Origin: an uncultured Arachnia sp.
GTDB lineage: Bacteria > Actinomycetota > Actinomycetes > Propionibacteriales > Propionibacteriaceae
Assembly (NCBI GenBank): GCA_947493995.1
Contig: CANLTJ010000002.1
Span: forward strand, 423,269 to 487,268
Length of the DNA stretch: 64,000 nt
Direction of reading: 5' to 3'
Below, in pieces: positions 6,089 to 64,000 of this stretch. The first letter of the stretch is position 1. Each line of letters begins with the position of its first letter. The notes under the pieces are model-generated. The model saw only the letters and a program-made list of their open reading frames with translations, did not search any database and was not told the DNA's origin. The position numbers were made by a program, and so were the translations under genes.

Positions 6089-6796
6089 TCAGCTCAGCGC
6101 CGCGGCGACGGCAAGTTTCAGTGCACCCTGGAACTTGGTCTCCCGGTCCTCCGCGCTCATGTCGGAGCTGTGGTCGAGCAGGTGGTCCGAGACGGTCAGA
6201 ACGGTGAGCGCCTGGCGGCCGAACTCAGCCGCCGCCCCGTAGATGCCGGCCGCCTCCATCTCCACACCCAGCACGCCGTACTTGCTGAGCAGCTCGATGC
6301 TGCTGGCGCCCTCGAGGTAGAAGTGGTCCCTGGACAGGATGGGACCGACGTGGACGGTCATCGAGTCGTCGGCGGCAGCCACTGCCGCCGCGGCCAGGTT
6401 GAAGCTGGCGAGCGCAGCGAAGTTCAGCCCGGGCAGCCGCTGCTGGTTCATGTTGGAGTCCGTGTGTGCTCCCAGACCGACGATGACGTCGCCCACCTTC
6501 ACGTCGTGGGACATGCCACCGCAGGTGCCGACGCGGATGATGCGCTGCACGTCGTAGTGGTCGTACAGCTCGGTGACGTACAGGGTGGCTGAGGGCATGC
6601 CCATGCCGGAACCCATGACGGTCAGCGGTTTCCCGTCGACGGTGCCGGTGAAGCCGAGCATGCCGCGGACGTCGGTGACCAGTTCGGCGTCGTCCATGAG
6701 CAGGTGGGCGATCCGTTCGGCGCGCTTCGGGTCGCCTGGCATGATGACCGCCGGGGCGATCTGGTCCTTCTCGGCGCGGATGTGCGGTGTGGGCAT
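6089..6796 (-). CDS. deoD: Purine-nucleoside phosphorylase, DeoD-type
   Basis: MPTPHIRAEKDQIAPAVIMPGDPKRAERIAHLLMDDAELVTDVRGMLGFTG...VMGSGMGMPS; C-terminal VSDHLL. Confidence 0.94.
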   Translation of the reverse strand: MPTPHIRAEKDQIAPAVIMPGDPKRAERIAHLLMDDAELVTDVRGMLGFTGTVDGKPLTVMGSGMGMPSATLYVTELYDHYDVQRIIRVGTCGGMSHDVKVGDVIVGLGAHTDSNMNQQRLPGLNFAALASFNLAAAAVAAADDSMTVHVGPILSRDHFYLEGASSIELLSKYGVLGVEMEAAGIYGAAAEFGRQALTVLTVSDHLLDHSSDMSAEDRETKFQGALKLAVAAALS

Positions 6797-55182: not shown

Positions 55183-55468
55183 TGTCCCAGTAGGGCCAAT
55201 GAACGGCTCCGGTGGCGATTGGCTAAGCCGCGTCGGTTGGATGCATCGCGCGTCGCGCAGCTGTAGTGCGCGCCAGATAGGTAGGGATGGTGGCGTGTTC
55301 GCCACCATCCCTACCAGACAGCAGTCTCACGGACTCCGACGCCCAAGCCGTTGTGACTCTCCGCCGCCGGACTTGAGTCTCTCCATCGCATCGAGGACGC
55401 GACGGGCGTTGGCTGGTGACCGCGACGGTAGGCAGTTTCGTGGGGTCTGCGGGCGAAGCCAGACTCTG

Positions 55469-55545
55469 GTCGGCGGTCGGCGGTCGGCGGTCGGCGGTCG
55501 GCGGTCGGCGGTCGGCGGTCGGCGGTCGGCGGTCGGCGGTCGGCG
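55469..55545. repeat. Heptanucleotide tandem repeat (GTCGGCG)11
   Basis: Eleven uninterrupted perfect copies read directly. Confidence 0.95.
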
Positions 55546-55635
55546 GGGCAACCAGACTTCCGAGTACCTGCACGGGGAACGTGAGTGCCATCCGTGCCTC
55601 GGTTTCGTGTCGTAGGGCGTCGATAGGCTCGTCCT

Positions 55636-58452: not shown

Positions 58453-58472
58453 TGATAACAGAGGCGTTATCA
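58453..58472. promoter_or_regulatory. Operator-like inverted repeat upstream of MNT/HEPN operon
   Basis: TGATAAC-agaggc-GTTATCA, ends 7 bp before the ATG at 58480. Confidence 0.65.
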
Positions 58473-58479
58473 TGAACGC

Positions 58480-58932
58480 ATGGAGTACGCGAGGCGAATC
58501 CGGGCGCGCCGAGAGGCGCTACAGCTGACGCAGCGTAATGTCGCGCAGCTCTCTGGGGTGAAGCAGCCGCTCATCTCGGCGATCGAGTCGGGCAAGAGGG
58601 AGCCCAGCGCTGCGACCAAGGCGGCGCTCGACCGGGTGCTGGCTGCTCGCCCTTCAGAAATGCTGCGGCTCTTCCGACCGGAGGCACTCATGGTGATCAA
58701 GCGGCATGGCGGAGCCGCACCCCTGCTGTTCGGCTCTGTTGCTCGCGGGAGCGACCGTCCTGAGTCCGATGTTGACCTCTTGATCACCTTCGCCGAGGAT
58801 GCCGGCATCACCGACCTGCTGGCAATGGAGGACGAGCTATCCGAGTTGTTGACCGTCCCGGTGGACGTGGTCTCGGCCGGCTCCTCCGGTCGCGTTGTTG
58901 ACCGTGCCCTGAGCGAGTCGGTTCCACTGTGA
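58480..58932 (+). CDS. MntA-type nucleotidyltransferase antitoxin with N-terminal XRE HTH
   Basis: RIRARREALQLTQRNVAQLSGVKQPLISAIESGKREPS (HTH) fused to LLFGSVARGSDRPESDVDLLITF (minimal NTase motif). Confidence 0.92.
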   Translation: MEYARRIRARREALQLTQRNVAQLSGVKQPLISAIESGKREPSAATKAALDRVLAARPSEMLRLFRPEALMVIKRHGGAAPLLFGSVARGSDRPESDVDLLITFAEDAGITDLLAMEDELSELLTVPVDVVSAGSSGRVVDRALSESVPL

Positions 58933-59288
58933 CTTCTGATCCGCCGGTACCCCAGGAGCGCCTTGCTGATTGGCTTGACGACCTGGCTGGCTTTGGCGCT
59001 GATGCCGATTACTTGGTCAGCTTGGGCAGGGAGGCCTATCTGGCTGATTCCGCTCAAGGTCGTCTTCTGCGGAATGCGGGGGAGCGGTTGCTGATCAAGG
59101 TGGCCACGATCGTGGAACGGCTTCCCGAGGAGTTCAAGGCTGGATACCCCGACATCGAATGGGTGAACATCAACCGGATGCGAAACCTCGTCGCGCATCA
59201 ATACGACAAGGTCAACCACGACCTCATGTTGGTGACTCTCCAACGAGACATCCCAGCACTCATCGAGCGTCTCGGCCTGAACGTCTGA
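58929..59288 (+). CDS. HepT-like HEPN domain toxin (DUF86)
   Basis: RNLVAHQY (RX4HXY) motif and MNT partner immediately upstream with a 4-bp overlap. Confidence 0.92.
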   Translation: MTSDPPVPQERLADWLDDLAGFGADADYLVSLGREAYLADSAQGRLLRNAGERLLIKVATIVERLPEEFKAGYPDIEWVNINRMRNLVAHQYDKVNHDLMLVTLQRDIPALIERLGLNV

Positions 59289-59429: not shown

Positions 59430-60255
59430 TTACCAGCGGGTGGCGCTCTCGTCGGCCTGTTGTGGGTCTCGAACGGCGGCGCCGAAGAATCGGTAGGCCC
59501 ACTCCTGGGCCAGTGCTCGGGTCTCGGCGAAGATGATGGGCACGCTGCGGTGGCGGACCTGGCATTCGGCGAGCATGTCAGCCACCACCGCAGGTCGGAC
59601 GTGCTCGAGTTTGAAGATCGCCGAGTACCTGTCCTCCACCAGCACCACGGCGCGGGGGACCTGCTCCAGGTCCGCGAGCCGGTAGCCCAGTTTGCCGCTG
59701 GTCAGGCTTCTGGCGAAGTCCGTCAGGGATTTGCGTTCCACCACAGCGATCAACTCGTCGTCGACCTTCACGCCGTAGTCGCCGGCCGGGAGTGCCCACT
59801 TGGTGGTCGTGGCCTGCCGGGTGCTGAACTTCCACGCATACCTCTCCCGGGTGTCGACGATGATCTCCATGTCGGTCAGCCCGAAGGCACGCGCCGTCGG
59901 TATGGATACGTTGGGGCGGGCGACCTTGAAGGTTCGGGCCGACTGCCAGAAGATCATTTTCCCGGCCGCGTGCCTGGGTGATGACGAACTGTGAGCGGGA
60001 CTCGCGTGTGCGGTCCACCTCGATGCCGATTGCCGCTCCGCGGCGAACACACGAGCGCAGCGGTAAATCCTCGACGATGTCCGCGTCCTCAGGCCAGCCC
60101 TCGGCTTGGGGGTGGCAGTAGATCTTGGAGCTGCGTGGCCATGTGTCCTTGACCCGCAGCACGATGCCCTCGCCCAGTGGGATCCGCACGATGTAGGGCA
60201 GCGACGAGTCCGCGTCCGGATTGCGTGCAATCAACAGTGTCTGCACATGTGGCAC
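59430..60255 (-). pseudogene. ERCC4-family nuclease gene split by a single-nucleotide frameshift
   Basis: N-terminal frame ...SRSQFVITQARGRE joins C-terminal frame MIFWQSARTFKVARPNVSIPTARAFGLTDMEIIVDTRERYAWKFSTRQ...AVVERKSLTDFARSLTSGKL if one A is removed from the AAAA run (plus-strand TTTT 59957-59960). Confidence 0.85.
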
Positions 60256-60345: not shown

Positions 60346-60774
60346 TCATGGAAGCGGATGATCAAATGGGTTGATGACAATCAGGTCAGCCACGCCTGCG
60401 AAGTCCTTGACGCTTTTGGTGGCAAGGGTGGCCGCGTTCGCGATACATATTCCCGCGATCTGCGCGCCTGCCAGCGACATCGTTCGTCCCGCGTTCATGC
60501 CGGCCACCACGAGGCGGGCGGTGGCTCTTGCGGCCGGAAGATCGTAGGTGACAATCCGGTCGGCGAAGACACCCAGTAATGTCGCCCAGCGACCCTGCAG
60601 GTCTTGGCGTCGGCGGCCGTGGGGGAGTCGTCCCAAACCACGGTCGATCTCCTCGACGGTGACCACGCTGATGGTCAGGTCTGCAGGCCCGAGACCCTGC
60701 GCCCACGTCGAGACACTCGCCTCGGGGGCGTCCTTCATGAACTCCGAGACGATATTCGTGTCGGCGATGATCAC
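60346..60774 (-). CDS. PIN-domain toxin (VapC/FitB-like)
   Basis: MIIADTNIVSEFMKDAPEASVSTWAQGLGPADLTISVVTVEEIDRGLGRLP...NAATLATKSVKDFAGVADLIVINPF. Confidence 0.93.
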   Translation of the reverse strand: MIIADTNIVSEFMKDAPEASVSTWAQGLGPADLTISVVTVEEIDRGLGRLPHGRRRQDLQGRWATLLGVFADRIVTYDLPAARATARLVVAGMNAGRTMSLAGAQIAGICIANAATLATKSVKDFAGVADLIVINPFDHPLP

Positions 60775-61007
60775 GACAGGTCGACCGGACGCGGTGGCTC
60801 GCTCCGATCTGGCAACTCGAGATCTACGCCCCCGGCCTCGGAGAATGCGGCGTGCAGGGCCAACAGGATGTTCTCTTCGGGAAGGTCAACTGTTGCGTCC
60901 AAAATCGCGCGGACCTCTGCCTCCACAGAGCGTCCGTGCTTGGCCGCACGGCTACGCAATCGAGCATGGGTGTGTTCGTTCAGCTGACGGATCGTCAAAG
61001 TGCTCAT
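60771..61007 (-). CDS. RHH antitoxin (FitA-like)
   Basis: MSTLTIRQLNEHTHARLRSRAAKHGRSVEAEVRAILDATV; overlaps the PIN gene by 4 bp. Confidence 0.93.
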   Translation of the reverse strand: MSTLTIRQLNEHTHARLRSRAAKHGRSVEAEVRAILDATVDLPEENILLALHAAFSEAGGVDLELPDRSEPPRPVDLS

Positions 61008-61865: not shown

Positions 61866-62993
61866 CTGGGCTATCCATCTGAGCCGACTAGACTGGAGCG
61901 GTGCAGATCGATCATCCACGCGGTGGGGTGCATTACCCGCGATCATTGGGTGAGTTCCAGTCGTGGTTCGCTACGGACGCGGACTGCTTGGACTTCCTGG
62001 AGTGGTTGCGCTGGCCGGACGGGTTCGTGTGTACGCGTTGTGGGAACGTCGGTGGCTGGCGTGTCGCGGACGGTAGCTTCAAGTGCACCGGATGCAAGGC
62101 CACAACCGCGGTCACGGCGGGCACGCTGTTCGACCGTCGTCGCACGCCGCTGACGGTGTGGTTCCAGGCGTGCTGGGAGTTCGCCACGGCCAAGGACGGC
62201 ATCTCGGCGCTTGCGCTGAAGCGGACACTGCAGATCGGTTCGTATCAGACGGCGTGGGCGATGCTGCACCGGTTGCGTGCAGTGCTGATCCGTCCCGGCC
62301 GGGAGTTGCTGTCGGGGCAGGTGGAGGTGGATGAGACCTACATCGGAGGTGAGGAGGCCGGACTGGCTGGCGGGCGTGCCAGGGGCAAGAAGGCGCTGGT
62401 CGTCGTTGCGGTTGAAGTGATGTCGCCGAAGGGGTTCGGACGCTGCCGGATGCGCATCATCCCCGACGGCTCCGCCAGCAGTCTGCATCCGTTCATCACC
62501 GACAATATCGCTGTCGGGTCCACGGTGATCACCGACGGATGGAACGGCTATCTGGGCATTGACAAGGCTGGCTACACCCATGACCGGCGCAGCCAGCGCG
62601 CAGCCAAGGCTCTGGGTGAGGACATCGACAAGCTGTTGCCCGGTGTGCACAGGATCGCGTCGCTGGCCAAGCGCTGGCTGCTGTCCACCCACCAGGGCGC
62701 CGTGAATACCGAGCACCTGACTGGTTACCTGGATGAGTTCTGCTTCCGGTTCAACCGCCGCCGCTCGCGCAGTCGCGGACTGGTGTTCCTGCGCGTGCTG
62801 CAGCTGGCCGTCGGCCACGACCCGGTGCGCTACCGAGAGCTCATCGCCAACCCCACACCGAAGAAGGCCCCACCGGCCCCTCCGGTCCGCAGAGGCCACC
62901 CACCAAGTCTGGATCGCCCTCGCGCCAGGCGGCCCTGGCGTCACGCCCCCTCCAAAACCGAGGCGGAGTAGTCAGCTCAGATGGATAGCCCGG
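61866..62993 (+). mobile_element. IS1595-family insertion sequence
   Basis: 25-bp terminal inverted repeats CTGGGCTATCCATCTGAGCCGACTA / (RC) CCGGGCTATCCATCTGAGCTGACTA, 23/25 identical, bounded by 9-bp direct repeat ATGCGCCTT. Confidence 0.92.
61901..62971 (+). CDS. IS1595-family transposase (ISXO2-like DDE domain)
   Basis: CTRCGNVGGWRVADGSFKCTGCKATTAVTAGTLFDRRRTPLTVWFQACW; GQVEVDETYIGGEEAG; VITDGWNGYLGIDKAGYTHDRR; VNTEHLTGYLDEFCFRFNRR. Confidence 0.95.
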   Translation: MQIDHPRGGVHYPRSLGEFQSWFATDADCLDFLEWLRWPDGFVCTRCGNVGGWRVADGSFKCTGCKATTAVTAGTLFDRRRTPLTVWFQACWEFATAKDGISALALKRTLQIGSYQTAWAMLHRLRAVLIRPGRELLSGQVEVDETYIGGEEAGLAGGRARGKKALVVVAVEVMSPKGFGRCRMRIIPDGSASSLHPFITDNIAVGSTVITDGWNGYLGIDKAGYTHDRRSQRAAKALGEDIDKLLPGVHRIASLAKRWLLSTHQGAVNTEHLTGYLDEFCFRFNRRRSRSRGLVFLRVLQLAVGHDPVRYRELIANPTPKKAPPAPPVRRGHPPSLDRPRARRPWRHAPSKTEAE

Positions 62994-63002: not shown

Positions 63003-63120
63003 ATGAAGCCCGTTCTATGGCATGCGGTGGCGGCGTGTGACGCAGCCTGTCGCAAGCCCAGGCGCTGCTGACTAGGCGTTCTGCGGCTACTTTGCCTTGA
63101 AAAACGCGGGTCCCGGGTTG

Positions 63121-63146
63121 TGGAGCATAGGGGACTCGAACCCCTG
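63121..63146 (-). other. Orphan tRNA 3' end, probable att-site scar
   Basis: Reverse complement CAGGGGTTCGAGTCCCCTATGCTCCA = T-arm (GGGG-TTCGAGT-CCCC) plus 3' acceptor strand; no matching 5' tRNA body upstream on the minus strand. Confidence 0.75.
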
Positions 63147-63378
63147 TTCAAGTGGGTTTTGACAAGGCAAGGAACTGCGCCTCCGGGGTGTTGAGCCCAA
63201 CCAAAGCCCACAGGTGGGAGCCTTGTGTGACGCGAGCGAAGGGTAGCGTCAGCGCCCGTAGCGGTAGCGGCAGGTTGACCGACGGGGGACCATGGTTGCG
63301 AGACGCTGCGACGACAGCTGATCGGAGAGCAGCAAGCCGCTGCGTGGCGTCAATCTCTCTCAACTTTCCGCCGACCGC

Positions 63379-64000
63379 TCACTCCCAGACATGGAGGCGC
63401 GGATTCCATCGTCCTGTTGCCGTTGTGGTCATCGCTGGATCGGCAAAGCTCGCGACCGCCGAGAGGACGTCGGCAAAGACTGCGGGGAGTTCGCCTTGGC
63501 GGTGAGATCGGGTGCGCCATGCACCGTACTTCTGCTGCGCGCGTTCGTTCATCGGCGCAAGCGTAGGCAGCAATGGTGCGAGTGCGACCTTGCGGTACTC
63601 GGCGACGGTCGCGATCGACGTGCGGAGATCGTCAGCGTTGACCGAGTGGAGGCGGGCGAGGACATACACATCCGCGAAGTCGCGCCAGCGGGTATTGGCG
63701 ACGCCGCGGCCGACGGCAGTGACGATCTTCTCTGCGAGCACCATGGTCAGCGGGTACCCCAGCAGCGTCACCGGGGGGAGACCAAGATCCATAAGGCGAG
63801 GCAGTTCGACAAGCTGAGGTGCTGGCCAGATGGGGTCGCCGAAGTTCACGTCCATTCCAACGGTCAGGCGGGCAGTTCCGAGCGTGGCTATGAGCTTGAC
63901 CCTGACCCCGGCGTACTCGTCCTCATCACGAATCGTTGTTGCGGTGACGCTCGCCGGATCGAACACGAGCCCGTCGGCAAGCCCAAGCCCTGCGATGGCG
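63379..64000 (-). CDS. AbiEii/AbiGii-type nucleotidyltransferase toxin, C-terminal part, runs off right edge
   Basis: In-frame from the edge: AIAGLGLADGLVFDPASVTATTIRDEDEYAGVRVKLIATLGTARLTVGMDVNFGDPIWPAPQLVELPRLMDLGLPPVTLLGYPLTMVLAEKIVTAVGRGVANTRWRDFADVYVLA. Confidence 0.88.
   Translation of the reverse strand, partial: AIAGLGLADGLVFDPASVTATTIRDEDEYAGVRVKLIATLGTARLTVGMDVNFGDPIWPAPQLVELPRLMDLGLPPVTLLGYPLTMVLAEKIVTAVGRGVANTRWRDFADVYVLARLHSVNADDLRTSIATVAEYRKVALAPLLPTLAPMNERAQQKYGAWRTRSHRQGELPAVFADVLSAVASFADPAMTTTATGRWNPRLHVWE

Follow-up and report, generated by a model that had tools for sequence, protein, structure and literature searches.

HEPN/MNT modules have been called the most abundant predicted toxin–antitoxin system in prokaryotes (PMC7641770). 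In the best-described type VII pairs, MntA AMPylates the tyrosine of the RX4HXY motif in HepT, which silences the RNase (PMC7641770). The HEPN/MNT antitoxin has no DNA-binding domain of its own, and the control of expression of these modules is poorly understood. Self-repression by MNT antitoxins is already known in a weak form, since Shewanella oneidensis MntA is reported to bind its own promoter and to repress it 1.6-fold without a recognised DNA-binding domain (PMC4621449). Here we describe a two-gene module within a 64,000-nucleotide stretch of DNA from an uncultured Arachnia sp., referred to below as the window. We consider it probable that this module is a mobile type VII HepT/MntA-like cassette whose MntA carries an acquired XRE domain, so that a single protein would both repress its own operon and AMPylate the toxin.

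The first gene (58480..58932, plus strand) starts with ATG and encodes a 150-residue XRE–MNT fusion, the predicted antitoxin, adenylyltransferase and repressor. An earlier reading, made from the sequence only, had proposed an XRE helix-turn-helix fused to a minimal nucleotidyltransferase, and Pfam confirms both domains in the places assigned to them: HTH_31 (E = 8e-11, residues 2–63) and HTH_3 (E = 6e-10), followed C-terminally by NTP_transf_2 (E = 8e-11, residues 79–131). The two strings quoted in that reading, GSVARGSDRPESDVDLL in the antitoxin and RNLVAHQY in the toxin, are both present as given. The XRE domain (residues 2–63; 58483..58668, plus strand) has its recognition helix near QPLISAIE, while the MNT half contains the active-site motif GSX10DXD (residues 85–99; 58732..58776, plus strand) and a third aspartate, D129 (58864-58866, plus strand). 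G85, S86, D97, D99 and D129 are invariant across 39 aligned fusions. The AlphaFold2 model has a pLDDT of 94.4, and the nearest solved folds are Thermus MNT (1wot) and MntA (7bxo). Existing database records name such fusions merely as helix-turn-helix proteins.

The second gene (58929..59288, plus strand) encodes a 119-residue HepT-like HEPN toxin. Its GTG start lies within the sequence GTGA and overlaps the antitoxin TGA stop by 4 bp, an overlap found in all pairs with an identified HEPN start. A PF01934 match (E = 7e-12) and the RX4HXY motif RNLVAHQY (R85, H90 and Y92; 59181..59204, plus strand) bear out the HEPN toxin expected downstream of the antitoxin. All of 36 HEPN partners keep R85 and H90, and nearly all (at least 90%) keep Y92, in a family whose HEPN proteins diverge down to about 25% identity. 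The AlphaFold2 model (pLDDT 92.0) is closest among solved folds to the HEPN toxins 7ae8/7ae9, with weak E-values and high probability. Both proteins score below the curated cut-offs of the NCBIfam equivalog models (42 of 60 bits for MntA and 20 of 60 bits for HepT), and because these are strict naming cut-offs the pair should be called HepT/MntA-like.

The conservation of these residues bears on how the toxin would be neutralised. The system could be a toxin–antitoxin pair as proposed in which neutralisation depends mainly on complex formation, with nucleotidyltransferase activity secondary. Some loci fit such an arrangement: the HEPN proteins of L013 and L067 read RNLVAHHDD, with aspartate at the AMPylation-tyrosine position and an intact paired MNT, and in L095 and L097 the tyrosine is displaced by one residue. 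Either such toxins are silenced in some other way or they are inactive; L069, a near twin of L067, has the tyrosine in its motif. Direct MNT–HEPN interaction was also reported in earlier work (PMC4621449). Even so, we regard neutralisation chiefly by binding as unlikely, given that the GS pair, the three aspartates and nearly all tyrosines are kept although the HEPN partners are only ~25% identical, and that S. oneidensis DXD and tyrosine mutants neutralise less (PMC7641770). Modification of Y92 by the MNT domain is thus the mode of silencing that we favour.

Upstream of the antitoxin gene lies a perfect palindrome, TGATAAC-N6-GTTATCA (58453..58472, no strand; full sequence TGATAAC-AGAGGC-GTTATCA), which we predict to be the operator. 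The sequence-only reading had placed this palindrome directly before the ATG; it is indeed there, but not immediately adjacent: 7 nt separate its end from the start codon, and it overlaps the −10 hexamer. It is the sole match within the window, even with three mismatches allowed, and the 2.94-Mb genome contains a single instance of the pattern GATAACN{6,9}GTTATC. In 300 dinucleotide shuffles, the position-restricted palindrome score of the site was never reached (p~0.003).

The palindrome is conserved among relatives of the module. Within the 18-member clade that includes this locus (tree support 100/98), GATAAC-N6-GTTATC is the sole conserved block in the ~70 bp upstream of the gene. The right half-site would be kept in part simply by its role as a −10 box, so independent evidence comes from the left half alone; that half overlaps no −10 box, and in each of its columns 14 to 18 of the 18 bases are identical. 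Across 44 XRE-fused loci, a significant palindrome (p<0.05) ends 5–11 nt before the start in 57%, compared with 5% and 0% at control positions 60 and 120 nt further upstream of the same loci and with 5% of 22 unfused MNT loci in the same position-restricted test. A general, position-free palindrome score gave no clear separation (25% of fused and 9% of unfused loci). The result was also weaker among more distant fusions fetched later and used as a hold-out set, where 3/12 reached p<0.05 vs 1/15 unfused loci; a clear palindrome is therefore a feature of the nearer clades. The distant fusions of the QSVVSAYE clade, which carry a linker, often have a degenerate palindrome or none that was detected.

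The palindrome sequence changes together with the recognition helix between clades. The QPLIxAIE helix pairs with the GATAAC/GTTATC palindrome, while in two clades with a QPNIAAYE helix a different palindrome occupies the same place: GATAGC-N5-GCTATC in the clade of L002 and ATATCGCGCGATAT in the other. At the sequence level, the proposed self-repression is upheld by this pattern, with dyad symmetry kept in place, tracking the HTH by clade and missing at unfused loci.

XRE domains serve many regulators, and XRE-fused enzymes are common. The XRE domain could accordingly act chiefly on other genes, or compete with a prophage repressor, leaving the palindrome before the gene incidental. The distribution of the site makes this very improbable. 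The source genome has a single site, and it stands before the XRE–MNT gene; in the family the site follows the gene, at most one per genome. The exact sequence GATAACN6GTTATC is found in 15 of 198 family genomes, one in each, and 10 of these 15 sites lie directly before an XRE–MNT gene (16 carriers; Fisher p 1e-9), with an eleventh before a decayed copy of the module. Nor was a viral relative found that would suggest competition with a phage repressor: a phage origin was considered and set aside, neither phage records nor viral contigs giving a match. Plasmid carriage was likewise set aside: a single near-full-length relative was plasmid-borne, in Mycobacterium avium.

The position of the palindrome also suggests how autorepression might work. 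A −10 hexamer, TATCAT (TANNNT; 58468..58473, plus strand), ends 6 nt before the start codon and is overlapped by the right half-site. A TANNNT ending exactly 6 nt before the start occurs at 40/47 XRE–MNT loci; the choice of start codons favoured TANNNT spacings of 5–8 nt, which does not by itself produce the peak at exactly 6. A sigma-70 promoter scan gave no −35/−10 pair, which is unsurprising since TANNNT promoters in M. tuberculosis lack a conserved −35 (PMC3898074). In Propionibacterium acnes the −10 consensus is TANNNT and leaderless mRNAs are common (PMC3848588), and in M. tuberculosis 32/37 toxin–antitoxin pairs with a primary start site are leaderless (PMC3898074). Given the hexamer 6 nt before the start and these actinobacterial precedents, the operon mRNA is probably leaderless. 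Such expression would not set the fusion apart, as 5/11 unfused actinobacterial MNT genes show the same TANNNT-N6 spacing. With the right half-site on the −10 box, a protein bound to the palindrome would lie over that box, and the probable mode of repression is that polymerase is blocked.

Full-length fusions, defined as matches that span the HTH as well as the MNT domain, occur in roughly 36 of the 198 family genomes sampled and sporadically across Actinomycetota. The source genome carries a second copy (L002) that is 44% identical and has its own HEPN gene. It also contains two further MNT genes with a HEPN-like gene downstream: one (L003, G000:C1:368089) has another HTH-like N-terminal stretch, MTQSQIAKEIGRSQPEVSRLL, and the other (L006, G000:C4:253644) has the HTH-like N-terminal stretch MSQRQIADALGISQPAISQQL.

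The module moves as a unit. DNA homology with ~72% identical relatives (L009, L059) starts at the left edge of the palindrome, at −27/−26 from the start codon, and stops at the HEPN stop codon, with unrelated flanks on either side. These limits coincide with the ends of the span 58453-59288 that had been delineated from the sequence. In most other pairs tested, the left homology boundary likewise falls at or near the palindrome, indicating that the operator travels with the two genes. Another member of the genus has a 93% identical copy (L008), with only about 1.76 kb in common. An ERCC4-domain nuclease gene beside the module (59430-60230, minus strand) is mostly common to that copy and may have travelled with the module. 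A segment similar to a tRNA gene's 3' end (63103-63272) is repeated in L008 at 6140-6308 (95%) and at 100-305, and is a possible remnant of an integration site.

One locus retains a decayed module (L139, G355, about 1480-2010), in which the operator is kept while the XRE domain and most of the MNT domain are deleted. Its HEPN frame is open, yet the RX4HXY motif is replaced (MRLNRLTARLDD), with R, H and Y all lost. Such a loss is as expected if an active toxin is untenable without its antitoxin, in this single case from an 80% complete genome. This decay also speaks to whether the pair is a toxin–antitoxin system at all. HI0073 (1no5) and HI0074 (1jog) have related folds, and by analogy with them the module could consist of a domesticated nucleotidyltransferase whose substrate-binding subunit is the HEPN protein. 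A role of this kind seems most unlikely to us in view of the invariant toxin arginine and histidine, the patchy distribution and cassette-like transfer between different flanks, and the decay of the toxin catalytic residues in the copy with a deleted antitoxin.

The surrounding part of the window contains several other features. A FitA-like RHH antitoxin gene followed by a PIN-domain toxin gene of the VapBC/FitAB type, the PIN match being weak, lies at 60346-61007 (minus strand), and an IS1595-family transposase gene at 61901-62971 (plus strand). An AbiEii-type nucleotidyltransferase gene (63379-63966, minus strand) apparently lacks its N-terminal part (profile positions 75-219 of 238). At about 55430-55550, a short tandem repeat lies between two genes, one frame of which reads as SAVGGRR repeats.

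Taken together, these features suggest the following model. A leaderless bicistronic mRNA would start at the ATG from the TATCAT −10 box, so that XRE–MNT is made first and its translation is coupled, by way of the 4-bp overlap, to that of the HEPN RNase. The MNT domain would then move AMP from ATP to Tyr92 of the toxin RX4HXY motif, silencing the RNase. An XRE–MNT dimer would bind TGATAAC-N6-GTTATCA through its XRE domains and cover the −10 box, by which the antitoxin would limit its own operon. Loss of the antitoxin would leave newly made toxin no longer neutralised and at the same time open the promoter. More tentatively, unmodified HEPN might pull the antitoxin off the operator, or lock it onto it, allowing the operon to sense the level of unmodified toxin directly, and the clade-specific operators might insulate sibling modules within one genome from one another; we offer this extension as a speculation, less likely than the model itself. 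If the extension holds, a single polypeptide would couple post-translational AMPylation of a toxin to transcription. The XRE–MNT family would make feedback of the AMPylation state on transcription directly testable, and its clades with differing operators and recognition helices would provide a ready-made specificity code.

Compared with described systems, the module combines features of two toxin–antitoxin types. As in type VII, GSX10DXD and a third aspartate lie on a pol-beta nucleotidyltransferase fold, next to an RX4HXY HEPN protein in an antitoxin-first, two-gene operon; as in type II-style autorepression, the antitoxin has a DNA-binding domain and a palindromic operator lies on the promoter. 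The type VII pair HepT/MntA of Shewanella oneidensis (SO_3166/SO_3165) likewise has the antitoxin gene first, overlapping genes (PMC7641770, PMC4621449), GSX10DXD with a third aspartate, and RX4HXY. It differs in having two dissimilar palindromes and a transcript start 30 nt upstream, whereas here one conserved palindrome lies on the −10 box of a predicted leaderless operon, and its MntA has no recognised DNA-binding domain where ours has a dedicated XRE domain. HEPN–MNT of Legionella pneumophila (8xeh, 8xeo; PMC11586414) shares the MNT and HEPN folds, as do the AMPylated HEPN/MNT complexes 7ae2-7ae9, but their MNT chains lack an HTH and their HEPN sequences are very distant from the one described here. 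Thermus 1wot, which among solved structures comes nearest to the MNT half in sequence (E = 3e-28) and in fold (41% identity in a structural alignment), also has no HTH, unlike XRE–MNT. Xress-MNTss of Streptococcus suis similarly places XRE and MNT in one autorepressed operon; these are separate proteins, of which MNT is reported to be the toxin and Xre its antitoxin, with no HEPN partner described in the part of that work covered here (PMC8406773). We found no description of an XRE- or HTH-fused MntA in the open-licence literature, which is not proof of absence. The new element is a dedicated XRE domain with its own conserved operator, which it is predicted to bind; the family thereby brings a dedicated repressor domain and a defined 20-bp operator to HEPN/MNT.
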